Source: a virus. Taken from it: a DNA stretch of 64,000 nt. The stretch covers positions 1-64,000 of IMG/VR virus record IMGVR_UViG_3300024308_000302. One strand, given 5' to 3'. The notes under the pieces are model-generated. The model was not told the origin of the DNA, did not search any database, and was given only the letters and a program-made list of their open reading frames with translations. A program made the translations under genes and the position numbers. How positions within the stretch are numbered: the stretch's first letter is position 1; each line of letters begins with the position of its first letter. Below are positions 34,252-45,461 of this stretch, in pieces.

Positions 34252-34281
34252 TTTTTAGTCTACTCTCGTCTTGATGTGGTA

Positions 34282-34310
34282 ATTATATAGAAATCCACAT
34301 GGTAGGTCAA
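34282..34310 (-). promoter_or_regulatory. strong sigma70 promoter with CATCAAGACGA box
   Basis: TTGACC-17-TATAAT followed by CACATCAAGACGAGA; drives the tRNA-Leu/tRNA-Met unit. Confidence 0.9.
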
Positions 34311-34357
34311 GCATATTTTTTAGAAAAAACCATTAATTTTCAATAATTTAAAAACAA

Positions 34358-34379
34358 CAAAACCGCCAGATGGCGGTTC
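34358..34379 (-). terminator. intrinsic terminator
   Basis: GAACCGCCAUCUGGCGGUUUUGUU hairpin after the 2H-like gene. Confidence 0.82.
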
Positions 34380-34394
34380 ATGGATTAGAAAATT

Positions 34395-34817
34395 TTATTT
34401 TTTGTTATGCAAATCGTAAAGGAAAACCCCAGTAAATTCAATATCCATGCCAATCAAGTCTTTGAATTTATCAGAATCACCAGCAACTGCAGATTTCAGA
34501 AGAGTGATATGAGGAACATGCGGCAAATCTTCAACAATTCCGAAAGATTTGACTGCTTTGTTATAAAAATGACTCCAATCAGTACCTTCAAGTTCAGCAA
34601 CAATCATAACCTGACCGTTTGGATTCCATTCAGAAATCTTAGAAATGCGGCCAGACAAATTGCCATTTTCATTTTTTGGATAATAAGGAAGCTGAATATG
34701 TTTGATAGATCTCGAATGATCAAAAAAAACAGTCAAATGAAGGTTTGATTTAATGTCAAAATTGGAAAGAACAGCACCAGATTCTTTGGTTACTGGAGCA
34801 GCAAAATACATAGCCAT
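34395..34817 (-). CDS. 2H phosphoesterase-like protein, 140 aa
   Basis: Two HxT motifs spaced as in the 2H superfamily: NLHLTVFF (His27-x-Thr29) and VPHITLLK (His103-x-Thr105). Family members open cyclic phosphates or cut 2'-5' and cyclic oligonucleotide bonds. In phages they include anti-CBASS Acb1 enzymes and RNA-repair ligase partners. Which applies here is unknown. It lies between two tRNA units, so RNA repair is also plausible. The SD is weak. Confidence 0.65.
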   Translation of the reverse strand: MAMYFAAPVTKESGAVLSNFDIKSNLHLTVFFDHSRSIKHIQLPYYPKNENGNLSGRISKISEWNPNGQVMIVAELEGTDWSHFYNKAVKSFGIVEDLPHVPHITLLKSAVAGDSDKFKDLIGMDIEFTGVFLYDLHNKK

Positions 34818-34851
34818 AAACTTTTAACTCAAACGATATTTGATAACGCTA

Positions 34852-34880
34852 ATTATACGTTAAATAAAGAAAAAGGACAA
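34852..34880 (-). promoter_or_regulatory. sigma70-type promoter
   Basis: TTGTCC-17-TATAAT for the 2H-like gene. Confidence 0.84.
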
Positions 34881-34898
34881 TTAAAAAATGCTAGAATA

Positions 34899-34922
34899 GA
34901 AAAAGGCACTCTGAGTGCCTTT
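34899..34922 (-). terminator. intrinsic terminator
   Basis: AAAGGCACUCAGAGUGCCUUU hairpin plus U-tract, ending the tRNA operon that begins at 35610. Confidence 0.87.
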
Positions 34923-34928
34923 GATGGA

Positions 34929-35005
34929 TGGTGGGACTTGTAGGGTTTGAACCTACGACCTAACGATTATGAGTCGTCCGCTCTAACCAACTGAGCTAAA
35001 GTCCC
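34929..35005 (-). tRNA. tRNA with CAU anticodon, copy 2 (Met or Ile2)
   Basis: 77 nt with encoded CCA, the same acceptor stem as copy 1, but a different anticodon stem (GGACGA...) and T stem. One of the two CAU tRNAs might be the isoleucine AUA reader after lysidine modification, which would suit the AT-rich genes with many ATA codons (inference). Confidence 0.92.
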
Positions 35006-35019
35006 ATTAAACAAGAATT

Positions 35020-35103
35020 TGGTGCCCGGTGCCAGACTCGAACTGGCACGGCTTTCGCCGGAAGATTTTAAGTCTTCTGTGTCTACCATTTCACCAACCG
35101 GGC
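35020..35103 (-). tRNA. tRNA-Leu(UAA), copy 2
   Basis: 84 nt with encoded CCA, one base shorter in the D-loop than the other two copies; anticodon TAA. Confidence 0.95.
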
Positions 35104-35108
35104 GTAAA

Positions 35109-35295
35109 TTGAACAGTCCAGAACAGGCTCACATCGAGCAATCTCCGCCCTCCACGGACGGTGTTTTAAGCTTCATCCTTCGACTTTCCCAGTTTATGGC
35201 CACTCAACTGGTTCCATCTAAGACTATGCAACTCTCTAGTCAGCCTGCAGAGCCTTCCTTCAAGTTCCTTTAAACTACCGTTCTGGACTATTCAA
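35109..35295 (-). ncRNA. 187-nt structured RNA with 16-bp closing stem
   Basis: The two ends (35280-35295 and 35109-35124) are complementary over 16 bp with one G.U pair. Inside are a CCAGTT/AACTGG hairpin and a CCGTCC/GGGCGG hairpin with a GGAG-containing loop. An SD-like CGGAG lies eight bases before ATG TGA (35129-35134). It sits between tRNA-Arg and tRNA-Leu in one transcript. No known RNA family is recognised. Confidence 0.6.
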
Positions 35296-35312
35296 TCAAC
35301 AACAAATAAAGC

Positions 35313-35389
35313 TGGCGTCTGTGGCAGGACTCGAACCTGCGACCATCCGCTTAGAAGGCGGATGCTCTATCCAACTGAGCTACACACGG
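35313..35389 (-). tRNA. tRNA-Arg(UCU), copy 1, acceptor end mispaired
   Basis: 77 nt with encoded CCA; D, anticodon (TCT) and T arms match copy 2 at 36621-36697. The first three acceptor pairs are mismatched (5' CCG against 3' GAC), while positions 4-7 pair. It may be non-functional, or it may need repair or editing. Confidence 0.75.
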
Positions 35390-35400
35390 ATAAAGAAAAG

Positions 35401-35477
35401 GGTGCTCTTGGTAAGGATTTGAACCTACGACTTGTGGGTTTCCGCCCACAAACTCTACCAGACTGAGTTACAAGAGC
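35401..35477 (-). tRNA. aberrant tRNA-like gene with 8-nt anticodon loop
   Basis: Acceptor GCTCTTG/CAAGAGC and the D stem are perfect, but the anticodon loop has eight bases (GCGGAAAC, no U33) and the T stem has one bulged T. CCA is not encoded (ACCC). The identity cannot be assigned. It could be a decaying tRNA or an unusual one. Confidence 0.55.
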
Positions 35478-35484
35478 GTGAAGC

Positions 35485-35610
35485 TTATTCTGCGTGACGG
35501 TTGCGGCGTTTATCACGCATTTGACGACTGATTTTGTTATCACTACGTTTGGCGTTATCTTTCGATTTGCCCGAGAATTTTTCCATAGTGTCGCGGTAAG
35601 AACCTTGCAT
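35485..35610 (-). CDS. MQGS/RDKRRNRH basic peptide, copy 2 (41 aa)
   Basis: MQGSYRDTMEKFSGKSK...RQMRDKRRNRHAE. Same ends as the peptides at 20074-20208 and 36707-36835. AAGGAAA precedes the ATG. It is the first gene of the operon that goes on to the aberrant tRNA, tRNA-Arg, the 187-nt RNA, tRNA-Leu and tRNA-CAU. Confidence 0.8.
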   Translation of the reverse strand: MQGSYRDTMEKFSGKSKDNAKRSDNKISRQMRDKRRNRHAE

Positions 35611-35646
35611 TTGGTGTTTCCTTGTATGCTTCGTTTTGATGGGATA

Positions 35647-35675
35647 AGTATATCAACCATTGAACCCGTTAGCAA
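35647..35675 (-). promoter_or_regulatory. strong sigma70 promoter with CATCAAAACGA box
   Basis: TTGCTA-17-TATACT followed by CCCATCAAAACGAAG; drives the tRNA operon 34929-35610. Confidence 0.88.
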
Positions 35676-35718
35676 CCATTTTTTTGAATATTTTTCGCTA
35701 TTTTTTCAAAAATTTAGG

Positions 35719-36054
35719 TCAATAGACAACATTTTTAATCACACCATCCAAACTGACAGATGATTCAGCATATCCACATGATTGAAGCAACCTGTTAACA
35801 TTAGCACGACTAAAGTTTTTTGGGAAACAATAATCTTTCCCTGTAATTAATGATCTTGCAACCCAAGGAAAATACTCACAAACAGAAGCATAAGTTTCAA
35901 CATTGTTAGCAAGTTCAGTGTATGAAGATGGTTTACGAGTTTGAAAAAGAATAACAGGTTCTGGTGGGCCTACAAGCAAGGGGAGATGATATAGAAAAAT
36001 AGGTGTTTCTACTTTTTTAGTAAAAATTTTTTTCATCAAATTAAAAATATTCAT
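35719..36054 (-). CDS. hypothetical protein, 111 aa
   Basis: Unknown. ATG at 36052-36054 with GAGGG upstream; the SD overlaps the stop of the coiled-coil gene at 36057-36239, implying translational coupling. An in-frame GTG two codons earlier is an alternative start. Confidence 0.73.
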   Translation of the reverse strand: MNIFNLMKKIFTKKVETPIFLYHLPLLVGPPEPVILFQTRKPSSYTELANNVETYASVCEYFPWVARSLITGKDYCFPKNFSRANVNRLLQSCGYAESSVSLDGVIKNVVY

Positions 36055-36056
36055 AT

Positions 36057-36239
36057 TCACCCTCTGAAATCAGTATGCTGATAGCAATAAAGTTGAAAAC
36101 CAGAAAGTTCACGGATAGTTTTGTTTTTTTCTTCAATAGTTTCACGAAGTCTTTTAATTTCGGCTTTCCAGCGAGCATTGTCATCTTCAAGAGATTTAAT
36201 GTATTCTGGGCTTTGATGATAAGGAATATCATTTTTCAT
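36057..36239 (-). CDS. coiled-coil protein, 60 aa
   Basis: Residues ~12-45 (YIKSLEDDNARWKAEIKRLRETIEEKNKTI) form a heptad-like coiled coil. GGATTC precedes the ATG. First gene of a two-gene unit with 35719-36054. Confidence 0.74.
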   Translation of the reverse strand: MKNDIPYHQSPEYIKSLEDDNARWKAEIKRLRETIEEKNKTIRELSGFQLYCYQHTDFRG

Positions 36240-36269
36240 ATTCGTGAATCCAATTAATGTTAGACACTG

Positions 36270-36298
36270 ATTATATCAAAAATAAAAATAAAAAACAA
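36270..36298 (-). promoter_or_regulatory. sigma70-type promoter
   Basis: TTGTTT-17-TATAAT for the unit 35719-36239. Confidence 0.84.
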
Positions 36299-36327
36299 CA
36301 AAAACCCCCTGCTGCGAGGGGGTTTTA
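36299..36327 (-). terminator. intrinsic terminator
   Basis: AAACCCCCUCGCAGCAGGGGGUUUU hairpin ending the operon that begins at 36835. Confidence 0.88.
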
Positions 36328-36357
36328 TTCTCATATAATTAAATTCTCTGATTTAGT

Positions 36358-36383
36358 TTAAAACTGCATCGGTAGTTCACCTC
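36358..36383 (-). other. minigene unit: SD-N7-AUG CAG UUU UAA
   Basis: GAGGTGA at 36377-36383, ATG CAG TTT TAA at 36358-36369, spacer seven bases. It is the last element before the terminator of the tRNA-Arg/tRNA-Leu operon. Confidence 0.72.
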
Positions 36384-36454
36384 TGGCACTTTAATTAAAT
36401 TTTAAAAGTTTATGGGCAATCATCAATTATACTAAATTCAATAATAGGATTAAA

Positions 36455-36486
36455 TTAAAGTTTATGCTGCATTATTGGCTCACCTC
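36455..36486 (-). other. minigene unit: SD-N7-AUG CAG CAU AAA CUU UAA
   Basis: GAGGTGA at 36480-36486, then ATG CAG CAT AAA CTT TAA at 36455-36472; spacer seven bases. It lies 44 bp downstream of tRNA-Leu copy 3. Confidence 0.72.
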
Positions 36487-36529
36487 TGGCACACTCATTA
36501 ATTATCAGTAGGTTTATCGTGGTTTAATT

Positions 36530-36614
36530 TGGTGCCCGGTGCCAGACTCGAACTGGCACGACTTTCGCCGGAAGATTTTAAGTCTTCTGTGTCTACCGAT
36601 TTCACCAACCGGGC
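36530..36614 (-). tRNA. tRNA-Leu(UAA), copy 3
   Basis: 85 nt with encoded CCA, anticodon TAA, long variable arm (one base change against copies 1 and 2). Confidence 0.95.
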
Positions 36615-36620
36615 ATAATT

Positions 36621-36697
36621 TGGCCCATGCGGCAGGATTCGAACCTGCGACCATCCGCTTAGAAGGCGGATGCTCTATCCAACTGAGCTACGCACGG
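36621..36697 (-). tRNA. tRNA-Arg(UCU), copy 2
   Basis: 77 nt with encoded CCA. Acceptor CCGTGCG/CGCATGG fully paired (one G.U), anticodon TCT. It reads AGA/AGG, which are frequent in the AT-rich genes of this window. Confidence 0.95.
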
Positions 36698-36706
36698 ATG
36701 TTTGAG

Positions 36707-36835
36707 TTAAGCGTCTTGATGACGATTGCGGCGTTTATCACGGAATTGACGGTCTTTTTTTGCAAAATTGCGGGTTTCTTTGTCACGACCTTTAGAAGTG
36801 AATTTTTCGGTCATATCGTTGTGAGAACCTTGCAT
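36707..36835 (-). CDS. MQGS/RDKRRNRH basic peptide, copy 3 (42 aa)
   Basis: MQGSHNDMTEKFTSKG...RQFRDKRRNRHQDA. It heads the operon with tRNA-Arg, tRNA-Leu and two minigenes. AAGGAAA precedes the ATG at 36833-36835. Confidence 0.82.
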   Translation of the reverse strand: MQGSHNDMTEKFTSKGRDKETRNFAKKDRQFRDKRRNRHQDA

Positions 36836-36871
36836 TTCGTATTTCCTTGTATGTTTCGTTTTGATGGGTTC

Positions 36872-36900
36872 ATTATAGAGAAATTGGTACTGCATGTAAA
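36872..36900 (-). promoter_or_regulatory. strong sigma70 promoter with CATCAAAACGA box
   Basis: TTTACA-17-TATAAT followed by CCCATCAAAACGAAA; drives peptide, tRNAs and minigenes. Confidence 0.9.
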
Positions 36901-36972
36901 GCATTATTTTCAAATTTTCTTAAAAAAACACATGATATTTTTCTTGTATTTCACTGATTTTTAAAGAAAAAG

Positions 36973-36992
36973 AAAAGGGCCTTTCGGCCCTT
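36973..36992 (-). terminator. intrinsic terminator
   Basis: AAGGGCCGAAAGGCCCUU hairpin with U-rich tail after the gene at 36995-37573. Confidence 0.84.
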
Positions 36993-36994
36993 AG

Positions 36995-37573
36995 TCAATC
37001 ATCGCTCACTTCATCATCATAGCATTCATAGTTTCGGATATAGTAGGTGAAAAGTTCTTCCAGAGAATCAAAATCTTTGTCTGGGTAGTTGCTACGCAGT
37101 GAGAACTTACCATCAGGAAGTGCATAAATGTAATGTTCCTGAGTAAAAATGTTAATAATTTTATTACCATCTTTGTCCATAGGTTTGAACAGTGGAATAA
37201 GATGCTTGAGGCCAGCAATGGATTTAGCATTGCGTTCAAGATCAAGTTTGTAGATAAAAACATCAACCGAACGTTGTTGGCTAAACGCACGATACCCCAT
37301 GCCATAAAGACCAAAAGATTCAATGAATTTTTGCGAAGCCGCATAACGAATCTTATCAGTCCCCGAACCAGATTCATGCATCAGAAAATCAAACCGTTCT
37401 TGTTCAGTCATATCCATCTTCAATGTTTCAATGGTGATGGATTCATTGAGAGAAGCAATCTCTTGACCAATAGAAGAAGCCTGATCTTGAAGTGGTTTGA
37501 TCTGCTCAAAAATATCATTACGCTGTGCTTTAAGTTCTTCACGGCGAGCAGTCAAAAGTGCAAGAGTAGTCAT
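36995..37573 (-). CDS. hypothetical protein with N-terminal coiled coil, 192 aa
   Basis: Residues ~5-50 (REELKAQRNDIFEQIKPLQDQ) look coiled-coil; a C-terminal globular part of ~120 residues is unknown. GAGGC precedes the ATG. Confidence 0.77.
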   Translation of the reverse strand: MTTLALLTARREELKAQRNDIFEQIKPLQDQASSIGQEIASLNESITIETLKMDMTEQERFDFLMHESGSGTDKIRYAASQKFIESFGLYGMGYRAFSQQRSVDVFIYKLDLERNAKSIAGLKHLIPLFKPMDKDGNKIINIFTQEHYIYALPDGKFSLRSNYPDKDFDSLEELFTYYIRNYECYDDEVSDD

Positions 37574-37600
37574 TAATATAGCCTCATTGAATTTGAATCA

Positions 37601-37629
37601 ATTATACATAAAAGACAGTGCCAAAGCAA
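37601..37629 (-). promoter_or_regulatory. sigma70-type promoter
   Basis: TTGCTT-17-TATAAT for the 192-aa gene. Confidence 0.86.
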
Positions 37630-37644
37630 CCTAAAAATAAGATT

Positions 37645-37839
37645 TTAAGGGATGCCATTCAAAAAATCTTTAATACGAGATTCTGCATCAGCACGATAAA
37701 TGTACCCAGATCGACAAGAACCACGAGGCCAATGAGTGATGAAGGTATTGCAAGGACGCCACCAGAACAGCCATTTATATTCGCAAATATAAACTTTTTT
37801 ACCATCATCACGAACCGCTTCACGAATACGAGTTTGCAT
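37645..37839 (-). CDS. hypothetical protein, 64 aa
   Basis: Unknown, Trp-rich centre (KWLFWWRPC). AAGGGAA precedes the ATG. Second gene after 37849-38031 (9-bp gap). Confidence 0.72.
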   Translation of the reverse strand: MQTRIREAVRDDGKKVYICEYKWLFWWRPCNTFITHWPRGSCRSGYIYRADAESRIKDFLNGIP

Positions 37840-37848
37840 ACAATTCCC

Positions 37849-38031
37849 TTATTCGTAAACTACCAGATCCCAAGTAACATATTCATGATCTGAACAAGAA
37901 CTGTTACGTTCAAGTACACCATTTTTAACATTTTTGGTACGTTCAACAAAATTACGAAGCTCATCAAGTGATAGAGAATCACGATCATGCATAATACCAA
38001 TTGAATCAACTACAGTACGTTTTTTATCCAT
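37849..38031 (-). CDS. hypothetical protein, 60 aa
   Basis: Unknown. GAGGTGA lies four bases before the ATG. First gene of a two-gene unit. Confidence 0.73.
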   Translation of the reverse strand: MDKKRTVVDSIGIMHDRDSLSLDELRNFVERTKNVKNGVLERNSSCSDHEYVTWDLVVYE

Positions 38032-38064
38032 AAATCACCTCAAAAATAGTTCAAATGGAAAGCC

Positions 38065-38093
38065 ATTATAAACAAAATACAACGAAAAGACAA
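38065..38093 (-). promoter_or_regulatory. sigma70-type promoter
   Basis: TTGTCT-17-TATAAT for the unit 37645-38031. Confidence 0.86.
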
Positions 38094-38486
38094 CTATTCT
38101 TCTAGCACAAAAATACAAGCAAGTTTATCATCAGGATGCAAAGTATCGCCCCAAGCATCTTCATTATCAAAATGTTTGACATTTTTCTTTTTCAAGAGGG
38201 CATGAAGTTCAGTAAAATTGAATGAATATTTTTTATCCAATTCAGGCTCAATACAAAATTGCTGACCATCAAAATTGTAGATGAAAAAATAATTTGGCTT
38301 AACTGCAACAAAACGAATAGTCCAAAAATTTTCTTCTTTCACTGGCTCATCACGATGAGGATCAACCTCTGTCATATAGCAATATTCAACACCGTCAATT
38401 GTGAACTTTTCTGTGTAAGCAGACGCTTTAACACGCTTGCAACGTTCTTTGATGGCTTTGACAATTTCTGGATGATTAGTAAGCAT
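38094..38486 (-). CDS. hypothetical protein, 130 aa; paralogue of 33229-33651
   Basis: Unknown. YCYMTEVDPHRDEP...WTIRFVA...NYFFIYNFDG.QFCIEPELDK.YSFNF aligns with the product at 33229-33651. The SD is weak. Confidence 0.76.
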   Translation of the reverse strand: MLTNHPEIVKAIKERCKRVKASAYTEKFTIDGVEYCYMTEVDPHRDEPVKEENFWTIRFVAVKPNYFFIYNFDGQQFCIEPELDKKYSFNFTELHALLKKKNVKHFDNEDAWGDTLHPDDKLACIFVLEE

Positions 38487-38515
38487 GGTGAATACCAGTA
38501 ATTTGCAAGAAGATG

Positions 38516-38544
38516 ATTATATCAAAAATAAGAAAATATGAAAA
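38516..38544 (-). promoter_or_regulatory. sigma70-type promoter (weak -35)
   Basis: TTTTCA-17-TATAAT for the 130-aa gene. Confidence 0.65.
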
Positions 38545-38568
38545 GCATCTTAATGAACAAGATGCTTA
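38541..38568 (-). terminator. intrinsic terminator
   Basis: AAGCAUCUUGUUCAUUAAGAUGCUUUU hairpin after the gene at 38575-38856; overlaps the next -35. Confidence 0.8.
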
Positions 38569-38574
38569 GAATAA

Positions 38575-38856
38575 TTAACTCTCGTTAATGAAAAAAGAAA
38601 CTCCAGTTTTGGGATAAAAAGTAGACTTCCAAAGATCACCATGTATATTGCCACCATCAAAAATGATGATTTCATAAATATGATGTTCATCAATAAGTTT
38701 TAGCAAAGAATCATAACTAACAGATTCCATATGTAGTTTAGAATCAACATTTTTAATAACGTAAGCATGGCCAACTGCATCATCAGATAGCATAGAATTG
38801 ATAGCAATGCCAAGATTACTCATGTAATCATCTGAATAAGTGATAGATTTTTGCAT
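38575..38856 (-). CDS. hypothetical protein, 93 aa
   Basis: Unknown. GGAG precedes the ATG at 38854-38856; longer readings run through the promoter. Confidence 0.73.
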   Translation of the reverse strand: MQKSITYSDDYMSNLGIAINSMLSDDAVGHAYVIKNVDSKLHMESVSYDSLLKLIDEHHIYEIIIFDGGNIHGDLWKSTFYPKTGVSFFINES

Positions 38857-38890
38857 ACAATCTCCAAGATTATGATAAGAATAGAAGTTT

Positions 38891-38919
38891 ATTATAGCAA
38901 ATATAAAAACAAAACTCAA
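38891..38919 (-). promoter_or_regulatory. sigma70-type promoter
   Basis: TTGAGT-17-TATAAT for the 93-aa gene. Confidence 0.82.
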
Positions 38920-38933
38920 CTTATTTAAAGCAA

Positions 38934-38957
38934 TAAAAAAACCACCCGAAGGTGGTT
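38934..38957 (-). terminator. intrinsic terminator
   Basis: AACCACC-UUCG-GGUGGUU hairpin plus U-tract after the gene at 38963-39559. Confidence 0.87.
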
Positions 38958-38962
38958 AATTA

Positions 38963-39559
38963 TTAAGCAGCAAGTAATTCTTTTCTTCGTATTCCACAAG
39001 CAATTGCATTATCGATTGCTTGAGACTTGTAAGTCTCTAAATCATATATTTTATACATTTCATGAAAGTTTAAATAACACATTTGATAACAAGGATAAAA
39101 TGTAACTCGAAGATCATTTCCACAAATAAAGTTAATATAAGTTAGTAAATCGTCAAGTACAGAAGTAAAGCAATATTCAAAGGAAATTTCAGTAGATTGA
39201 ATAGTATTTAAATAATCCTTATTATGAAGATGATAAGAATGACTTTTACAAAGAGAAAGAATGTGATTTTCAAGAGACATAGCACGAAGCTTTGAAATAT
39301 CAGGATCTTTTGTGATAATTTTGAATAGATGAACAAAATTAATATTACTATCTTTAAATTTTTGTTTTAGAGCAGAAACTCTGCTACCGAAAGTAGAAGA
39401 ATGACCTATTTTAATAACACCATTTTTGAGACGCAATACATAAACAAAGTGAATATAATCTTTAGTGTTTCCATCCATTTCTTTAGAATGCATACGTCTT
39501 GGATCAACACAAGAATAGTTAGAAATAAAGAGTTTAGATCTGCGATGAAAAGCATACAT
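38963..39559 (-). CDS. GIY-YIG/T5orf172-like protein, 198 aa
   Basis: HFVYVLRLKNGVIKIGHSSTFGSRVSALKQ (about 37-66) matches the Y-V-L...IKIG.S..F..R pattern of the T5orf172/MUG113 branch of the GIY-YIG nuclease superfamily; the rest is unknown. Possibly a mobile or DNA-processing nuclease (inference). The SD is GAGAT. Confidence 0.65.
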   Translation of the reverse strand: MYAFHRRSKLFISNYSCVDPRRMHSKEMDGNTKDYIHFVYVLRLKNGVIKIGHSSTFGSRVSALKQKFKDSNINFVHLFKIITKDPDISKLRAMSLENHILSLCKSHSYHLHNKDYLNTIQSTEISFEYCFTSVLDDLLTYINFICGNDLRVTFYPCYQMCYLNFHEMYKIYDLETYKSQAIDNAIACGIRRKELLAA

Positions 39560-39590
39560 AAATATAAAATCTCATTTTTCAAGTTTAATA

Positions 39591-39619
39591 ATTATATCAA
39601 AAATAAGCTCAATGGTAAA
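39591..39619 (-). promoter_or_regulatory. sigma70-type promoter
   Basis: TTTACC-17-TATAAT for the 198-aa gene. Confidence 0.82.
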
Positions 39620-39630
39620 GCAAAAACAAT

Positions 39631-39653
39631 AAAAAAACCACCCGAAGGTGGTT
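39631..39653 (-). terminator. intrinsic terminator
   Basis: AACCACC-UUCG-GGUGGUU hairpin plus U-tract just after the CCA end of the tRNA/tmRNA-like RNA. Confidence 0.88.
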
Positions 39654-39659
39654 TGTGTT

Positions 39660-39826
39660 TGGTAGCTGTTGATGGGGTCGAACCACCAAGTTAGGACTAT
39701 TTCACAAGCTTCAGAGTACGTGCAATCTCGTCCGACAAGTTATTTCATCTTCACTCCGCTTCCACATCCACGGCTCTTGGTGTCTGCACGTATGACACCT
39801 CCTTCCGATCCAGTTTAGCAACAGCC
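39660..39826 (-). ncRNA. tRNA/tmRNA-like RNA with internal ORF, 167 nt
   Basis: The ends form a 7-bp acceptor stem (GGCUGUU/AACAGCU, one G.U), discriminator A, encoded CCA and a T-arm (GGUGG-UUCGACC-CCAUC). The 5' part (ACUGGAUCGGAAGG) resembles the tmRNA D-loop. Inside, hairpin GGUGUC/GACACC (39779-39784, 39794-39799) has a loop pairing over 8 bp with 39717-39724, a pseudoknot. An SD AAGGAGGUG (39796-39804) precedes GUG CAG ACA..., a 12-codon ORF at 39751-39789. There is no anticodon arm. It is shorter than known tmRNAs. Confidence 0.6.
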
Positions 39827-39840
39827 ATAAATCTTAAATA

Positions 39841-39924
39841 TGGTGCGGAAAGCGGGACTCGAACCCGCACGCCTTGCGACACTGGCTTCTAAGACCAGCA
39901 CGTCTACCATTTCGTCACTTCCGC
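39841..39924 (-). tRNA. tRNA-Leu(UAG)
   Basis: 84 nt with encoded CCA, acceptor GCGGAAG/TTTCCGC (one G.U pair), anticodon TAG, long variable arm. Confidence 0.95.
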
Positions 39925-40086
39925 ATAAAATCAAAGTGGTCTACTCTATTTATTTTAGCACCGAGTAGTATTCCATACTTTCAAGCTATATTGGCAACCG
40001 AAGCTGTTATTCCAAAACAAACCACTTGAAAGAAGTGCTAAGTTATTGCTGCAAGATTTTGTATCTCCGTTTCGTCTTGTGGGCCT
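39925..40086 (-). other. leader between promoter and tRNA-Leu(UAG)
   Basis: 160 nt without a normal gene. GGAG (40064-40068) lies nine bases before TTG CAG CAA TAA (40043-40054), a possible divergent minigene with a TTG start. Confidence 0.35.
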
Positions 40087-40115
40087 ATTATAGTGTAATG
40101 CAAGGTAACCGTCAA
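40087..40115 (-). promoter_or_regulatory. strong sigma70 promoter, CACAAGACGA variant box
   Basis: TTGACG-17-TATAAT followed by CCCACAAGACGAAAC; drives tRNA-Leu(UAG) and the tmRNA-like RNA. Confidence 0.9.
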
Positions 40116-40142
40116 GCTTTTTTACTTCTTTTAGAACAAATT

Positions 40143-40227
40143 TGGTGCCCAAAGTCGGACTCGAACCGACACTCCTTTCGGAAGCGGATTTTGAATCCGC
40201 CGCGTCTACCAATTTCACCATATGGGC
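40143..40227 (-). tRNA. tRNA-Leu(CAA)
   Basis: 85 nt with encoded CCA, acceptor GCCCATA/TTTGGGC (lower pairs imperfect), anticodon CAA, long variable arm. Confidence 0.93.
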
Positions 40228-40295
40228 TTGTTTAGTGGCTGGCCCGCGTCACCGCCTCCACCCGTAGACTTTAGCGTCTACCCTTTATGCGTTGC
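40228..40295 (-). other. hairpin leader of tRNA-Leu(CAA)
   Basis: Contains GTAGAC-GCTAAA-GTCTAC, a 6-bp hairpin, then G-rich GGGTGGAGGCGGTGACGCGG before the tRNA. Possibly a processing signal. Confidence 0.4.
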
Positions 40296-40324
40296 AGTAT
40301 ATCAAAGTTAGAGGTTCTGTACAA
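40296..40324 (-). promoter_or_regulatory. sigma70-type promoter
   Basis: TTGTAC-17-TATACT for tRNA-Leu(CAA). Confidence 0.82.
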
Positions 40325-40363
40325 GCCTTTTTACCAACTTTTCAAAACTTTTTTGTCACTCAA

Positions 40364-40410
40364 CTACATAACTACTTGCTGCATTATTGAAGTCACATTC
40401 TACTGCCAAC
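40364..40410 (-). other. degenerate minigene unit
   Basis: ATG CAG CAA GTA GTT ATG TAG (40364-40384) with AATGTGA in place of the strong SD, and a preceding GAGTTGGCAGTAGA resembling the usual GAGTGTGCCAGA. It lies between the gene at 40441-40623 and the tRNA-Leu(CAA) promoter. Confidence 0.45.
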
Positions 40411-40440
40411 TCATGTGATAATCAACCTTTTTTTGAAATA

Positions 40441-40623
40441 TTATTCTGCATCACGATCTTGGCAAGCTGATTTATAACCACGATTCCAGCTATACTGAAG
40501 CATGATATTGACAGCTTCCAACTGTTCAGGTGTAAAGCCTACAGTAGATGGGGCATTCGTGTTATTGGGATCTGCTGCATCTTCCATAATTTCACGAACA
40601 TCATCATGAATGTAGCCAGCCAT
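40441..40623 (-). CDS. hypothetical acidic protein, 60 aa
   Basis: Unknown; EIMEDAADPNNTNAPSTVGFTPEQLEAV...QYSWNRGY. ATG at 40621-40623 has GAGG upstream; an earlier in-frame ATG overlaps that SD. Confidence 0.73.
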   Translation of the reverse strand: MAGYIHDDVREIMEDAADPNNTNAPSTVGFTPEQLEAVNIMLQYSWNRGYKSACQDRDAE

Positions 40624-40653
40624 GGTAAACCTCATCGTTTGTGTATAGCGTTT

Positions 40654-40682
40654 ATATTAACAAATATCTAATTTGAAAACAA
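40654..40682 (-). promoter_or_regulatory. sigma70-type promoter
   Basis: TTGTTT-17-TAATAT for the 60-aa gene. Confidence 0.72.
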
Positions 40683-40689
40683 GAAAAAA

Positions 40690-41292
40690 TTAGAGTTTTT
40701 GATTGGTGTCCACATAACCTAAGTAGGCACTAATTTTTTTCTCAACATATTCTTTACTTTGTGTAAAATCATTATGGTGCTCATCACGCTGCATATAGCC
40801 TTTAGGGAATGTCATAGTCACATTCATGCCAAGTGCTTCACCAGCAATACCACCAGCCCAATCAGCACCTGTTTGACCACCTGAGATGAGGTTGGTTATA
40901 GGCCAAAATTCATGGACTTTGGAAATAACAAGATAAACCCACTGGTTCAAAGATGCTTGAGATTCGTTCACAAGTTGCTCTGCATCCAAAGTATTAAATT
41001 TGTTGGGTTGATTATCCTTAGACCATTCACCTGACAAGGAATAGATTCCATTACCAGCCACATTCAAAGTGGAAACATTGTGTTTTTTGCAAGCAGCATA
41101 AAGCATACGAGCAGCCACAAGTGGGTCAGTGCTCAAATGGATAGAAACATAACGTTCACCAGCTTCACGTTTGGTCAAGCGTTCACCGGCTGAAGAAAAG
41201 TCTTCTGCGATAGCGACAGTAAGATCTGCTGTACGAGCATTGTGTACAGTTCGTGGCTTGTACTGTGCAGATTCATGTTCGATAATATGCAT
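40690..41292 (-). CDS. SLOG-domain (putative Mo-carrier-like) protein, 200 aa
   Basis: The C-terminal half has LISGGQTGADWAGGIAGEALG (about 135-155) and TFPKGYMQRDE, the nucleotide-binding signatures of SLOG/DprA-like Rossmann proteins often labelled 'putative molybdenum carrier'. The N-terminal ~125 residues are unrecognised. SLOG proteins bind nucleotide-derived ligands, so a sensing or nucleotide-processing role is inferred. The SD is GAGGGGG. Confidence 0.75.
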   Translation of the reverse strand: MHIIEHESAQYKPRTVHNARTADLTVAIAEDFSSAGERLTKREAGERYVSIHLSTDPLVAARMLYAACKKHNVSTLNVAGNGIYSLSGEWSKDNQPNKFNTLDAEQLVNESQASLNQWVYLVISKVHEFWPITNLISGGQTGADWAGGIAGEALGMNVTMTFPKGYMQRDEHHNDFTQSKEYVEKKISAYLGYVDTNQKL

Positions 41293-41333
41293 AAAACCCC
41301 CTCATTCTGTGAATATACATTATACCATAAGGA

Positions 41334-41738
41334 TCAACGTTTCACACGAATATTTTTAAAATTTTTAGGAACGACATTTGATATATCATTTCTAATAATT
41401 GTTTTTGGATCATTAATAAAAACAACTTGACCATCATCAGAAATAAATAAAGGATTAACATTTGAATATTCTATCAAAGCAAAACCATATTTTTGCAAAA
41501 CAGAAAAGTCACGAATAAAACGCATACATTTATCTTTAGATTCAAAAGCAAAAATTGCATAAGGATGATCATTTAATATTTTTTGAACTTCTGGAATGGC
41601 ATCAATATCTTTCATCACAGATTTTATGCCATTAATACCTTTATTGACAACTTCTATTATCTGACCACCATGTTCAAAAGGGCCAAGACTAGAGATAGAA
41701 TGTTCAATACGATACACAGAACAAATGGCATCGGTCAT
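41334..41738 (-). CDS. hypothetical protein, 134 aa
   Basis: Unknown. Weak SD (GAGC). No clear promoter or terminator is seen around it. Confidence 0.68.
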   Translation of the reverse strand: MTDAICSVYRIEHSISSLGPFEHGGQIIEVVNKGINGIKSVMKDIDAIPEVQKILNDHPYAIFAFESKDKCMRFIRDFSVLQKYGFALIEYSNVNPLFISDDGQVVFINDPKTIIRNDISNVVPKNFKNIRVKR

Positions 41739-41777
41739 ATTAAAGCTCGAAAAATGGTTATAAAATTATGTATAATG

Positions 41778-41960
41778 TTAATCAGATTTTTTCAATGGAA
41801 ATATCATATCCCAAACAAAATGTCCCTTTTGAGTCGTCCAACAGTAAGCTGTAGACTCTACAGACAAACAATCTTTCATTCGATAATAGGAAGCACACAA
41901 CGACAACAAAAACGCAACACCGATGACGAAAGCAAAAATTGGAATCATACTTTTGTTCAT
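41778..41960 (-). CDS. single-pass membrane protein, 60 aa
   Basis: N-terminal membrane segment (SMIPIFAFVIGVAFLLSLCASYY) and a short soluble tail with two Cys. AGGGC precedes the ATG. Some phage proteins of this form modify host envelope functions (inference). Confidence 0.72.
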   Translation of the reverse strand: MNKSMIPIFAFVIGVAFLLSLCASYYRMKDCLSVESTAYCWTTQKGHFVWDMIFPLKKSD

Positions 41961-41997
41961 GATTTGATGCCCTGAATGGTCATTTTAAGATGAGGAC

Positions 41998-42027
41998 ATT
42001 ATACCAATAAAACACATATGATGGCAA
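41998..42027 (-). promoter_or_regulatory. sigma70-type promoter
   Basis: TTGCCA-18-TATAAT for the 60-aa membrane protein. Confidence 0.78.
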
Positions 42028-42199
42028 GAAAATTTTCAAAAATATTAGAAATGAATCAAATCAAAATAAAGAAAACGTATAATACAAAGTAAGCAATATA
42101 AATATATAGAAAAGCATAATAAATTAAAGTAAAAATAAATAAGTCAGACTATTGACCGTATAGTTTCTTATGTTAAATTTTTTAAAACAACACACATAA
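42028..42199. other. AT-rich spacer before the outer-membrane protein gene
   Basis: No gene. On the plus strand TTGACC (about 42153-42158) is followed by TTAAAT after ~15 bases; this is not a normal sigma70 promoter. Confidence 0.35.
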
Positions 42200-42211
42200 A
42201 GAGGGATGACT

Positions 42212-42790
42212 ATGTTAAAAAAAATATTAGGGACAATGGCTGTATTGGCATTGTGTGCTAACGCTCAAGCTGGTGTTATTATAGGCGGTTCACTTGGGTC
42301 AAGTTCAAGTGATATAAAAAATGCTAAATATGATGATAAAGTAAAGAATGAAGATTACAGTGACTCTTTGAAGAGTGCTGAAACTTGGGGTATTAAACTT
42401 GGTTATGATTTTGAAGTAGCAAGAACATATATCAGTTATGATTATGCTTCAAAAAATGATCATGGCAAGAATAGCCAAGAAAACATAGTGTTATCTGCTG
42501 ATTATATGTATAGAGTTAGTAATGAAGTAAGGTTGTTTGCAGGGCTTTCTGGTGGTTATAACAGAATGAAAAATGAATCAACAAGTTATCGTGGATATAC
42601 TTACGATCCATATAGTTATGTATGGGGTGGTCAATTAGGTATGTTATATGAATTCTCTAACTGGCAATTAGAAACAGGCTACAGATATTTAAAACATGAC
42701 ACTGATGAACATGAAGAAGGTGCAAGTAAAGTATTCCCACAAATAAGAGCCACTGACCAAGTGTATATTGGTCTAAACTATCATTTTTAA
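42212..42790 (+). CDS. outer-membrane beta-barrel protein, 192 aa
   Basis: Sec signal peptide (MLKKILGTMAVLALCANAQA), then a Gly-rich first strand (GVIIGGSLGSSSS), about eight amphipathic strands and a C-terminal aromatic VYIGLNYHF typical of the BAM signal. Size fits an OmpX/Ail-like or OmpA-N-like 8-strand barrel. A phage-made barrel could alter the surface against rival phages or serum (inference). GAGGG precedes the ATG at 42212-42214; an earlier ATG overlaps it. Confidence 0.85.
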   Translation: MLKKILGTMAVLALCANAQAGVIIGGSLGSSSSDIKNAKYDDKVKNEDYSDSLKSAETWGIKLGYDFEVARTYISYDYASKNDHGKNSQENIVLSADYMYRVSNEVRLFAGLSGGYNRMKNESTSYRGYTYDPYSYVWGGQLGMLYEFSNWQLETGYRYLKHDTDEHEEGASKVFPQIRATDQVYIGLNYHF

Positions 42791-42796
42791 ACAAAC

Positions 42797-42823
42797 AAAA
42801 AAGCCGTCCTAAGACGGCTTTCT
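42797..42823. terminator. bidirectional terminator
   Basis: AAAGCCGUC-CUAA-GACGGCUUU hairpin with A and U tracts, between the barrel gene (plus) and 42837-43031 (minus). Confidence 0.85.
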
Positions 42824-42836
42824 TATTGCTTTGAAA

Positions 42837-43031
42837 TCAGCCCATTACAACAGAACGAAGGGCCTTTTCGGAGAAGCGGCGTGGTTCAGGAGCCTGACCA
42901 GACCGAACATCTGGAACACCTTGAACAAGATATTCACGACCATTTTCAGTTGGGTACGAAGCCACAACACGACCAGTATAGCCAGAAGCACGAGCCGAAA
43001 CCAGATCACGAGCACCGAATTTATGAGTCAT
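42837..43031 (-). CDS. hypothetical basic protein, 64 aa
   Basis: Unknown. FGARDLVSARASGYTGRVVASYPTENG could be a KOW/SH3-like strand set (weak inference). GAAGGAAA precedes the ATG. Confidence 0.72.
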   Translation of the reverse strand: MTHKFGARDLVSARASGYTGRVVASYPTENGREYLVQGVPDVRSGQAPEPRRFSEKALRSVVMG

Positions 43032-43067
43032 TGTGTATTTCCTTCTATTGTTTGGTTGATGGTGGCT

Positions 43068-43096
43068 ATTATAGCAAGGTTGGTATCAATAGACAA
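43068..43096 (-). promoter_or_regulatory. sigma70-type promoter
   Basis: TTGTCT-17-TATAAT for the 64-aa gene. Confidence 0.86.
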
Positions 43097-43153
43097 GCAT
43101 TTTTTCTATTTTTAAAAAGAGATTTTCTGAAAATCCCTATTTTTTAAGTGCGT

Positions 43154-43432
43154 TCAAAAAGGCCCGAAAGGGCTTTTTTGAGTACCTGCAAGACTTCTTG
43201 CTGGCGTTGGTGCTTCATACTCCAAAGCAGCCTGCAGACACTCGCGTGGAGTTCCACAATGAATGTTTCGAATGCAACGACCACCAGAACCAGTATTGTT
43301 TTTGTCTTCGTATTCATCAAGACCTGTATAGCCATTACGAGACTTAGCAGCAAGATAAACACCAGTACCAGCTAACCCAACATTGATATCTTTAAGGTCA
43401 GCAGTAAGACTTTTGATAGTATAACGAGTCAT
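43154..43432 (-). CDS. hypothetical protein, 92 aa, stop codon beyond terminator hairpin
   Basis: Unknown. GAGG precedes the ATG. The last seven codons (KSPFGPF, stop TGA 43154-43156) are formed by a terminator hairpin and its U-tract, so most transcripts should end at or before the stop codon. Confidence 0.65.
   Translation of the reverse strand: MTRYTIKSLTADLKDINVGLAGTGVYLAAKSRNGYTGLDEYEDKNNTGSGGRCIRNIHCGTPRECLQAALEYEAPTPARSLAGTQKSPFGPF
43156..43179 (-). terminator. terminator inside the 3' end of a reading frame
   Basis: AAAAAAGCCCUUUCGGGCCUUUUU hairpin and U-tract lie within the frame 43154-43432. Confidence 0.8.
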
Positions 43433-43460
43433 AGGAACCTCAACATGGATAATTGTGTTA

Positions 43461-43489
43461 ATTGTACTCTAAAATGTATAAATTGGCAA
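43461..43489 (-). promoter_or_regulatory. sigma70-type promoter
   Basis: TTGCCA-17-TACAAT for the 92-aa gene. Confidence 0.8.
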
Positions 43490-43499
43490 CGACATTAAA

Positions 43500-43523
43500 C
43501 AAAAAACCCGCCGAAGCGGGCTT
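43500..43523 (-). terminator. intrinsic terminator
   Basis: GCCCGC-UUCG-GCGGGU hairpin plus U-tract after the gene at 43538-44260. Confidence 0.87.
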
Positions 43524-43537
43524 TCAAATCAAATGAT

Positions 43538-44260
43538 TTAGAGATAACGCAACGTGTTTTGAGTTGGAGTTGCTTTATAACCAAAAGTTTCCAGAAGTTT
43601 AACATCAAAATCAATGATTTTTGCCTTTGAAGATTCACGGTCAGTAACAGGAATATCAGCAAGCGGTGCCATTTCTGCAAAAGGCAAAGCAGTTACGTTG
43701 AAAACGTTATGGCGAAGTTCAACCAAAGCAGTTTGATCGGCTGCCAATGTGGCAATTTTCACAATACGAGTGCCATCAATACTATCTTCATAAGTTCCAC
43801 GACGATGAATGTCACCATTTTCAATGGTTGGAACTTCCGTAATTGCATCAAACATTTGTTGGAAGCTGTTATCAGCCATTTCACTGGTATAGTCGGTCAG
43901 GTAGCCAAAAATAGAAACCCGAGCACCTTTGTTAGCTTCACGAACTTTATTTTTTGCAATTTTGCGAACGCTATAACTACGATTATTACGATATTCAGAC
44001 AGCAGGCGTTCAAAAGGGGTTTTCTTTTCGGTATCATCGAAAAGTCGCATAAAAGCAGGCATAGAAGTCATGCCTTTATTGTTAACCATCAAACAGATAG
44101 CATCACTTGCATGATGATAATGAGAAACAATGATACCATTGGTTTCTTCAAAACCTTTAGTAACTCGTTCAATATTTCGAAGGCCAAGAGCGTAAACTTT
44201 ATCAAAACTTGGCACTTCCGAAACATCGTGACGAATTGCAATGATGACTTGATTACCCAT
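43538..44260 (-). CDS. hypothetical protein, 240 aa
   Basis: Unknown soluble protein. GGAGC precedes the ATG at 44258-44260. No motif recognised. Confidence 0.77.
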   Translation of the reverse strand: MGNQVIIAIRHDVSEVPSFDKVYALGLRNIERVTKGFEETNGIIVSHYHHASDAICLMVNNKGMTSMPAFMRLFDDTEKKTPFERLLSEYRNNRSYSVRKIAKNKVREANKGARVSIFGYLTDYTSEMADNSFQQMFDAITEVPTIENGDIHRRGTYEDSIDGTRIVKIATLAADQTALVELRHNVFNVTALPFAEMAPLADIPVTDRESSKAKIIDFDVKLLETFGYKATPTQNTLRYL

Positions 44261-44291
44261 GATGTAGCTCCGATTTCGTTTAAGTGAGCCA

Positions 44292-44320
44292 ATTATACAT
44301 GAATCCACCATTGGGGTAAA
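44292..44320 (-). promoter_or_regulatory. sigma70-type promoter
   Basis: TTTACC-17-TATAAT for the 240-aa gene. Confidence 0.84.
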
Positions 44321-44329
44321 GAAAAAAAT

Positions 44330-44977
44330 TTAGATTTTATACATATCGATCAAATCACAAACGGAATCAGGATTAAATCCAATATCCAAGTCAAAATTAA
44401 CATCAATTTTTTTATCTTTTAATAATTTTTCAATTGATGAATCAAGATAAGCCAAAATAGGTTCAGTTAAATACCATTTTGATTTAATGTGTTTAAAATA
44501 AGTATAAATAGTATAATTTTTGCATTCAAAACTAACAGAGTTTAAATAAAATGAAACATCGACGCCATAAGAGTGAACATCAAAATTTATTGTCTCAAAT
44601 ATTTTATTATCTTTTTCATTATTTAAGTGATTAAATACTTTAAGTAATTTTAATTGATGAGCAATATGACTATTTATAATTGAGTCATTTTTTAAAAATT
44701 CAACAAGTTCTAAATCATCAAATTTAAACTTAACACCAACTAAAGTTTCAAGAGATGGATGTAAAGAAATATCAAATAAAACCTGATCAGTAGATGTTTC
44801 AATAATATTAAAAAGAAAAGGATATTCATTGGTAACAGGAACAACTGAATAAAGAGCAGGATCAAAATTGAACTCAAGAATAGAAAACGCTTTTTGTAGA
44901 AGATTTCTCCTGCCTTCTTCTAGCCTTTTTTCTACTTCTTCCAAAAGTGAATTTGATATATAACTACTATTTTCCAT
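44330..44977 (-). CDS. hypothetical protein, 215 aa
   Basis: Unknown, more AT-rich than its neighbours. AGGTGG precedes the ATG at 44975-44977. No sigma70 promoter is evident upstream, where the terminator at 44999-45023 lies. Confidence 0.73.
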   Translation of the reverse strand: MENSSYISNSLLEEVEKRLEEGRRNLLQKAFSILEFNFDPALYSVVPVTNEYPFLFNIIETSTDQVLFDISLHPSLETLVGVKFKFDDLELVEFLKNDSIINSHIAHQLKLLKVFNHLNNEKDNKIFETINFDVHSYGVDVSFYLNSVSFECKNYTIYTYFKHIKSKWYLTEPILAYLDSSIEKLLKDKKIDVNFDLDIGFNPDSVCDLIDMYKI

Positions 44978-44998
44978 ATGTCCACCTAAATATAAATA

Positions 44999-45023
44999 AG
45001 AAAAGGCCACCTAAGTGACCTTT
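44999..45023 (-). terminator. intrinsic terminator
   Basis: AAAGGUCACUUAGGUGGCCUUUU hairpin after the gene at 45041-45430. Confidence 0.82.
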
Positions 45024-45040
45024 AATATCATAACAACCAG

Positions 45041-45430
45041 TTAGCTCATTTGCTCACTGAAACGGTTCATCGCTTCAACAAAGTCTTTGCGAACCTTCAA
45101 TGCGTCTTCATCAGAGATAACTGAACATGCCTTGATATAGCGAACAGCAGATGCGTCAATATCTTCTGGAATCTCAACATTATGACCAGACAGATAAGAG
45201 CTATTCCACGAACTCAGGGTTAGCGATTCCTGTTCTGGATAGCCGAAAAGTTCCATACCTTGAGCATTACGAGAGGCTTCCAGAGCGAAGTAGTTCACTT
45301 GCCCATCATGCGAAAAACTGAATTTCACAGTGGATTTACGAATAGCACCACCATTGAGATCAACGGTATTGATTTTTTTGAAGGAAATCGCTTTGAGCAA
45401 GGCACGGTTAAATTTTTGAGAATAGTTCAT
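45041..45430 (-). CDS. hypothetical protein, 129 aa
   Basis: Unknown. AGAGGA lies about ten bases before the ATG. Confidence 0.74.
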   Translation of the reverse strand: MNYSQKFNRALLKAISFKKINTVDLNGGAIRKSTVKFSFSHDGQVNYFALEASRNAQGMELFGYPEQESLTLSSWNSSYLSGHNVEIPEDIDASAVRYIKACSVISDEDALKVRKDFVEAMNRFSEQMS

Positions 45431-45461
45431 GTTCTTGAGTCCTCTCTGTTGTTAGGCGTTC

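Follow-up and report, generated by a model that had tools for sequence, protein, structure and literature searches.

What kind of RNA does a large phage encode at positions 39660–39826 of the window, and does it belong with the tRNAs, with tmRNA or with neither? The window is the first 64 kb of a phage record of 290,157 bases. An initial annotation had described here a tRNA- or tmRNA-like RNA with a pseudoknot and an internal reading frame, and its coordinates (39660–39826, 167 nt) proved exact. The RNA lies on the minus strand and runs from 39826 to 39660.

Genomic setting of the 167-nt RNA

The locus comprises the following elements.

40087..40115, minus strand: sigma-70-like promoter TTGACG-17-TATAAT upstream of tRNA-Leu(UAG), 11 of 12 consensus matches (prediction only)
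39841..39924, minus strand: tRNA-Leu(UAG), first stable RNA of the inferred unit (ARAGORN; Rfam tRNA model, 57.3 bits)
39660..39826, minus strand: tRNA-like RNA of 167 nt without anticodon arm (descriptor scan: 7-bp acceptor, 5-bp T-arm, ACCA)
39635..39654, minus strand: intrinsic terminator (8-bp stem and T run)

Between the CCA of tRNA-Leu(UAG) and the start of the RNA lie 14 nt, and its own CCA is followed by a 5-nt spacer and then by the terminator, near-identical copies of whose sequence occur elsewhere in the record. Four promoter-like sites were found in the region, where shuffled sequence has 1.8 on average. Like the RNA, every one of the 37 tRNA-model matches in the record lies on the minus strand. 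Promoter, tRNA-Leu, 167-nt RNA and terminator are likely to form one transcription unit, as judged from these sequence signals. The phage is very divergent, since a PHROG family could be assigned to only 5 of the 29 long ORFs tested. The best named DNA matches of the region 30000–50000 were stretches with tRNA genes in Pseudomonas phage PA5oct and its relatives, with a coverage of 1%.

Both ends of the RNA resemble a tRNA

The tRNA-like part is made up of four sequence elements.

39820..39826, minus strand: 5' strand of the acceptor stem, GGCTGTT, pairing with 39664–39670
39664..39670, minus strand: 3' strand of the acceptor stem, AACAGCT (pairing check)
39671..39687, minus strand: T-arm GGTGG-TTCGACC-CCATC, five pairs including one G-U
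39660..39663, minus strand: discriminator A and encoded CCA (sequence, pattern scan)

All three features named by the initial annotation, a 7-bp acceptor, a CCA and a T-arm, were recovered; the acceptor consists of G1-U72 followed by six Watson-Crick pairs. A descriptor scan for T-loop, T-stem, seven acceptor pairs and NCCA picked out the 167-nt RNA besides called tRNAs and tRNA 3' ends in alternative long pairings. A simpler T-arm/CCA pattern (GTTCRANNC-N12-CCA), run over the whole record with the reversed pattern as control, gave 37 sites, all on the minus strand, and none for the control. Thirty-three of these coincide with tRNA-model matches. The remaining four 'orphans' begin at 39660 (the 167-nt RNA), 114416, 114546 and 129987.

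Pattern sites were also compared with tRNA calls in PA5oct, Vibrio phage D69, T4 and KVP40. In the first three the pattern found annotated tRNAs only (10/10, 20/20 and 4/4, respectively). In KVP40, ARAGORN left 5 of the 30 ends uncalled (175581, 179301, 179957, 180967 and 181719), one of which, 180967, has a tRNA-model match despite the missing call. Uncalled ends also occur in two records that share the minigenes described below, namely two of five in G005 and three of 29 in G006; of these three, one is on the opposite strand, within apparent coding DNA.

ARAGORN, intron modes included, called neither a tRNA nor a tmRNA at the locus. The initial annotation had suggested searching with tmRNA and tRNA covariance models, and neither RF00023 nor RF00005 matched there, whether Rfam was used at the gathering threshold or at E ≤ 10. 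Its description of a tRNA-mimicking RNA is supported for both ends and for the place in a tRNA unit, and from these a tRNA-like RNA is very probably the best reading of the locus. Scanning for T-arm and CCA can thus find candidate phage RNAs missed by tRNA and Rfam annotation, four in this record.

Some of the other orphan ends are of interest in their own right. That at 114546 (G000:114546-114651; L016 14547-14652, minus strand) belongs to a 106-nt RNA with a 7-bp acceptor, T-arm and CCA that is not called as a tRNA. At the place of the anticodon arm it has a hairpin with a 16-nt loop, 7 nt of which can pair with the 3' strand of its own T-stem and acceptor, either as a switch or by chance. 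G000:114416 and G000:129987 (L016 and L008, minus strand) are T-arm/CCA ends without a recognised tRNA. G006 and G005 share a homologous tRNA-like RNA (L038 1200-1518, L048 520-950) with a T-arm, a CCA and a UCU-like anticodon loop; by eye, it has no clear D-arm, and the ~250 nt upstream of it are also similar between the two and seem to be structured.

A predicted pseudoknot replaces the interior arms

Between its tRNA-like ends the RNA contains the following elements.

39805..39813, minus strand: D-loop-like segment CTGGATCGG, RNA positions 14–22, no D stem seen
39796..39804, minus strand: Shine-Dalgarno-like AAGGAGGTG, RNA positions 23–31, a 9-nt match to the anti-Shine-Dalgarno sequence (strand scan)
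39794..39799, minus strand: 5' strand of pseudoknot stem S1, GGTGTC (shuffle and pairing tests)
39785..39792, minus strand: 5' strand of pseudoknot stem S2, TACGTGCA, which includes the GTG and forms eight Watson-Crick pairs with 39717–39724
39779..39784, minus strand: 3' strand of S1, GACACC (shuffle and pairing tests)
39751..39789, minus strand: short ORF GTG CAG ACA ... GAG TGA, 12 codons and stop (translation predicted)
39717..39724, minus strand: 3' strand of S2, TGCACGTA (shuffle and pairing tests)

No D stem and no anticodon-like loop were seen in the interior, in agreement with the earlier statement that an anticodon arm is missing. The segment CTGGATCGG, which had been likened to the D-loop of tmRNA, is present, but we take its likeness to the tmRNA consensus to be only loose, and a D stem is lacking.

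The 8-bp pseudoknot of the initial annotation held as a prediction. S1 forms a 6-bp hairpin, GGTGTC[ATACGTGCA]GACACC, the loop of which (in RNA letters AUACGUGCA) pairs over 8 bp with the downstream UGCACGUA to form S2, all pairs being Watson-Crick. In dinucleotide shuffles of the interior we looked for a perfect stem of 6 bp or longer with eight or more loop bases finding a complement; this occurred in 3 of 20,000 shuffles, and in 35 of 20,000 if seven bases or more were accepted. A single unpaired base precedes S2, which is followed without a gap by the 3' strand of S1; this is the near-minimal layout of a classical H-type pseudoknot. Both this anatomy and its low probability of arising by chance are computed results. 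An alternative drawing as a kissing loop, with a GAG/CUC hairpin round the 3' pairing strand, was set aside; the H-type pseudoknot needs fewer assumptions.

As a nested structure the RNA folds in an ordinary way: its minimum energy has a z-score of +0.71, and 153 of 200 shuffles are at least as stable. Forcing acceptor, T-arm and S1 together gives −40.1 kcal/mol as compared with a minimum of −41.3 kcal/mol, and AAGGA then sits in an internal loop. With the S2 bases freed the value is −35.6 kcal/mol, and the isolated S2 duplex contributes −10.6 kcal/mol as computed, which would make the predicted pseudoknotted form competitive in this energy model. In the nested ensemble, pairing probabilities are 0.86–0.99 for the acceptor and 0.94 for S1, but only 0.14 for the T-arm.

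A Shine-Dalgarno-led frame and the AUG-CAG minigenes

The strong Shine-Dalgarno sequence that had been noted before GUG CAG ACA, in a frame of 12 codons ending in UGA, is present. It lies directly before the S1 hairpin and extends into it. Among the 343,008 bases of strand examined, AAGGAGGTG is both the longest and the only 9-nt match to the anti-Shine-Dalgarno sequence. The weight of this match is modest, because 128 of 20,000 shuffles of the G-rich interior also reach a match of at least 9 nt; a match of at least 7 nt followed by RTG occurs in 947 of 20,000. AAGGAGG occurs three times in the record, as often as the reversed control. The codons of the predicted frame are GTG CAG ACA CCA AGA GCC GTG GAT GTG GAA GCG GAG TGA. 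Translation may never occur, because the start codon would be buried in the knot.

The same start context is found in a set of minigenes of this phage. Ten units occur in the phage sequence examined, each of the form GAGGTG-(leader)-AUG-(0–4 codons)-stop, with CAG as second codon in eight of the ten.

59411–58999 (region 59418–58980), minus strand: array of five minigene units about 100 nt apart
36486, 36383 and 32806, minus strand: three minigenes
L018 11944 and 11758, minus strand: two minigenes, near 183.8–183.9 kb of the record

Their consensus is AGTGCC-GAGGTGAGCTACCn-AUG-CAG-(x)-stop, with one to five codons and a strong Shine-Dalgarno sequence. Since arrays with three visible units each are also present in two other large contigs, of 179 kb (L034) and 437 kb (L035), the units are common to different phages. 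A third match of the minigene scan, L033, was dropped, since no array is seen there and the DNA resembles ordinary coding sequence.

The pattern GGAGGTGN{4,12}RTGC has four sites in the record, all on the minus strand and with none for the control: the 167-nt RNA and three minigenes. Similarly, 9 of the 40 GAGGTG sites in the sequence examined lead to a start codon and CAG, and these are eight minigenes and the 167-nt RNA. One minigene has a GAGGTG that starts 44 nt downstream of the CCA of a tRNA-Leu, and the 167-nt RNA follows another tRNA-Leu. The suggested kinship with the minigenes, and with it a ribosome-directed role, is therefore plausible as far as Shine-Dalgarno sequence, start codon and CAG are concerned, but the rest of the consensus is missing. 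Where the minigenes have AUG and one to five codons, the RNA has GUG, 12 codons and a knot; they share an AGTGCC...GAGGTGAGCTACC-like leader and have no tRNA-like ends. Since the RNA is without the AGTGCC...GAGCTACC leader, any descent from the minigenes is conjectural. In bacteria, mini-ORFs with a strong Shine-Dalgarno sequence are described as regulatory or RNA-stabilising elements (PMC8708949).

Searches for relatives

No homologue of the 167-nt RNA was found by blastn against phages or by exact-pattern scans of IMG/VR and GTDB. As a consequence, the structure is predicted from a single sequence rather than from covariation or signs of selection, which is the main weakness of this analysis. 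Among 50,697 phage records, 350 matched the query, none over 80% of it. The best 40 of these all matched within query positions 156–211, that is, the 3' end of the RNA and the terminator, and the best of the listed matches, with 26% query coverage, is an ordinary tRNA with a terminator. Pattern scans of IMG/VR gave three stretches and then one stretch, none of them tRNA-like; one further pattern had no match, and another had five stretches, all of which matched via the T-arm of a called downstream tRNA. The GTDB genomes gave no match. Because only exact matches count in such scans, they could miss a relative that has diverged.

Protein queries did not lead to a relative either. Two neighbouring proteins gave none, although one of them returned relatives of less than 60% identity, mostly from Vibrio phages; nor did a search with a 666-aa protein of the same phage, encoded at a distance from the locus. 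The two minigene-sharing records have a tRNA-Leu(UAG), but it is followed by an apparent protein gene in G006 and by a terminator in G005, and a DNA search of both with the RNA gave only a 14-base match. Two contigs of 451 kb and 349 kb (L022 from 5291 onward, L026 from 2717 downward) carry TGGATCGGAAGAAGGAGGTG, similar to the 5' part of the RNA, upstream of a tRNA-Leu. They were dropped as relatives, as the hairpin context differs and enclosing tRNA-like ends are missing, and are a weak lead only.

Comparison with tmRNA and other tRNA-like RNAs

tmRNA, including the phage tmRNAs and the form of phage DS6A that consists of a tRNA-like domain only, likewise combines tRNA-like ends with a pseudoknot and an internal ORF and has no anticodon arm. 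The pair G3-U70 is the alanine identity pair of tmRNA; in the 167-nt RNA, pair 3-70 is C-G. The tmRNA tag has a hydrophobic, ALAA-like tail, and its frame is entered without a Shine-Dalgarno sequence. By eye, the predicted tags here would end in ...DVEAE (GTG frame) or ...VKMK (GCA frame), neither of which is tmRNA-like, and the GTG frame is led by a Shine-Dalgarno sequence and starts inside the knot. RF00023 did not match at the locus in the search of the phage's own genome or in a local scan, both to E ≤ 10. Elsewhere in the record it gave 11 sub-threshold matches, the best of them (19 bits) coinciding with a called tRNA and another (14.6 bits) with the orphan 114546. No SmpB was found in this record or in the two minigene-sharing records, which are possibly fragments; a control matched in 10 of 14 genomes. 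Likewise, no translation-rescue partner was seen among 29 ORFs compared with PHROGs, 10 ORFs compared with Pfam, or in searches of the record for SmpB and for a terminase family. Every testable feature except the generic tRNA-like ends thus disfavours a tmRNA, and the minimal phage tmRNA considered by the initial annotation finds no support.

According to one survey, tmRNAs occur in 402 of 18,146 phage genomes (PMC9004378), and huge phages are described as able to carry both tmRNA and SmpB (PMC7162821). For the tRNA-like-domain-only sequence of mycobacteriophage DS6A, a similar molecule is reported to inhibit tmRNA (PMC4131195). In the open-access literature set consulted nothing was found on a jumbo-phage tRNA-like RNA together with tmRNA, which does not exclude publication elsewhere.

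Nearest in kind is the small RNA RNAC (species 1 RNA) of T4. It, too, sits at the 3' end of the tRNA cluster of its phage and has a T-arm but lacks an anticodon arm; the 167-nt RNA belongs to this broad kind, being last in its tRNA unit. RNAC is 139 nt long with an imperfect acceptor and, like the 167-nt RNA, has no Rfam match at the gathering threshold. Unlike it, RNAC has no encoded CCA and no strong Shine-Dalgarno sequence (longest anti-Shine-Dalgarno match 4 nt), and in the pseudoknot test it gave only a 6-nt pairing, that of its T-loop. It also folds far more stably (z-score −4.57 as compared with +0.71) and is conserved, with 710 matching phage records, 698 of them over at least 80%. No similarity between the two RNAs appeared among the BLAST matches listed (for the 167-nt query, the best 40 of 350). 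New relative to RNAC are the CCA, the predicted pseudoknot and the Shine-Dalgarno-like sequence. RNAC has been validated by Northern blot (PMC9697503); its role is described as unknown (PMC3014915), and the function of both T4 tRNA-cluster small RNAs, RNAC and RNAD, is still called so in papers of 2010 and 2022 (PMC3014915, PMC9697503).

In KVP40, the 'tRNA-Pseudo' genes 3–5 and an unannotated unit at 181719-181841 are also phage tRNA-like sequences uncalled by ARAGORN, with lengths of 113–124 nt. All but one of the four have a CCA end, and three have retained a clear D-arm; no D-arm is seen in the 167-nt RNA. All four resemble tRNAs whose anticodon region carries an insert, and in the same tests they showed no anti-Shine-Dalgarno match longer than 6 nt and no pseudoknot. 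The units are located at 179301-179416, 180967-181090, 181101-181213 and 181719-181841 (L032), and a hairpin with a UGAYAA loop is common to three of the four inserts by eye. With the pair 180967-181213 as query, 63 phage records matched, 17 of them over 80% or more. A Cronobacter phage matches the full length of the 180967 unit by itself, at 71%; because this unit is matched whole in other phages, it is unlikely to be a pseudogene.

YrlA, a bacterial Y RNA, is a further tRNA mimic, with D-, T- and acceptor-like arms. Its ends are described as forming the Rsr-binding stem (PMC8394870), an opposite topology to that of the 167-nt RNA, whose ends form a CCA acceptor. A small subset of jumbo phages is reported to encode TROVE proteins (PMC7824862).

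Interpretation

The reading that we tentatively prefer is that of a phage small RNA in which a tRNA scaffold carries a ribosome-directed payload. The scaffold is well supported; ribosome targeting is deduced from the sequence elements. Transcription, processing, ribosome binding and purpose we infer as follows. The RNA would probably be co-transcribed with tRNA-Leu(UAG). Judging from the acceptor/T-arm module and the operon position, its 5' end would be cut by RNase P and its 3' end trimmed to the CCA as in the neighbouring tRNA, and the tRNA fold would provide defined ends and stability. In place of the D and anticodon arms, the predicted H-type pseudoknot would lie next to a near-perfect Shine-Dalgarno sequence, and the GUG-CAG frame would start within the knot. 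The exposed AAGGA could be bound by the 30S subunit while the knot would gate initiation at GUG, so that the RNA may occupy ribosomes or be read as a minigene. If true, the joining of an explicit ribosome-binding element to a tRNA scaffold would offer a concrete, testable guess at the role of one such RNA. A bolder version, which we consider doubtful, is a phage-invented tRNA–mRNA hybrid unrelated to tmRNA, in which the knot would present the Shine-Dalgarno sequence and a GUG-CAG minigene for ribosome capture, regulation or production of a peptide. If correct, such a molecule would also carry a possibly chargeable CCA end, would form one strategy of ribosome-directed RNAs together with the AUG-CAG minigene arrays of the phage, and would suggest that phage tRNA–mRNA hybrids were built independently of tmRNA.

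Two simpler accounts do not involve ribosomes. The RNA could be a stable RNA of the T4 RNAC kind, its fold serving processing, stability or the decoying of tRNA-handling enzymes, with an incidental Shine-Dalgarno-like run. The parallel in T-arm, missing anticodon arm and position at the 3' end of a tRNA cluster (for an RNA whose role is called unknown, PMC3014915) fits this, as does the fact that the other three orphans have anti-Shine-Dalgarno matches of only 4–6 nt and that shuffling produces the 9-nt match in 128 of 20,000 cases; such an account, however, turns both this match and the minigene-like start and CAG into coincidences, and we regard it as a minority possibility, if a serious one. 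Slightly less probable, and on balance unlikely, is a decaying tRNA or a chance join, that is, the 3' half of a tRNA whose 5' half was overwritten, without function. The ordinary folding energy, the failure to find relatives in the searches above and the further odd tRNA ends in this record and two others are compatible with decay, and by our own estimate chance would supply a 7-bp partner for the acceptor, with no more than one G-U, within about 120 nt in roughly 3% of cases. Yet acceptor, T-arm and CCA are all intact, the pseudoknot arises in only 3 of 20,000 shuffles, and the RNA is fitted compactly between tRNA and terminator.

The remaining alternatives tie the RNA to known families. A true tmRNA variant, or a tRNA-like-domain decoy of host tmRNA and SmpB of the kind proposed for DS6A, is improbable: tRNA-like ends, internal ORF and pseudoknot are shared, phage precedents exist for each form (PMC9004378, PMC7162821, PMC4131195) and the tmRNA model has its 11 sub-threshold matches in the record, one at the orphan 114546, but none is at the locus, and C3-G70, the tag tail, the start inside the knot, the Shine-Dalgarno sequence and the failure to find SmpB in three phage records speak against it. 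The decoy in particular is possible but unsupported (PMC4131195). An ordinary tRNA interrupted by an insert, a good fit to which the initial annotation had named among the findings that would refute its reading, has models in the 113–124-nt KVP40 genes with their anticodon-region inserts, one of them found whole in other phages. The ARAGORN intron options find none at the locus, the D-arm of the KVP40 forms is not seen, and a 7-nt loop with U33 is, by eye, present in neither of the main hairpins, which leaves this account very improbable. Least probable is a YrlA-type mimic serving a phage Ro60/Rsr protein; YrlA does imitate D, T and acceptor arms (PMC8394870) and some jumbo phages encode TROVE proteins (PMC7824862), but no Y RNA family matched at E ≤ 10, the Rsr-binding stem differs in topology from a CCA acceptor (PMC8394870), and Pfam found no TROVE match in 10 long ORFs, which cover part of the genome only.

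Further elements near the tRNA genes

Other structured sequences were seen near tRNA genes. By eye, hairpins with a loop of the TAAAG or CAAAG type precede a GGTGACAGCGGTGTCGCGGG-like sequence at several such places (window ~40300-40235, minus strand; L018 ~11710-11620; L046, downstream of the end at 603; L017, near 3191) and form a candidate non-coding RNA family. An element of about 110 nt, ACGGTTGGGTGAACCGGCTC ... CGGGCCAAGCGTAGGTTAGGGGCGAAGGTC, is present twice (L008 ~3950-3850 and L016 ~14990-14880), each copy just upstream of a tRNA or tRNA-like gene, and Rfam gave nothing above chance for it. The tRNAs Leu(UAA), Met(CAU) and Arg(UCU) occur in many copies. tRNAs with a CUA (amber) anticodon or with the odd anticodon calls (ga), (tttg) and (agaa) were found at 179840 and 180849 of the phage record (G000), at G006 375997, at 35401-35477 of the window, at L017 3042 and at L041 4163. 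In the sequence examined, TAG is the terminator codon of 18 of 183 long stop-to-stop frames.
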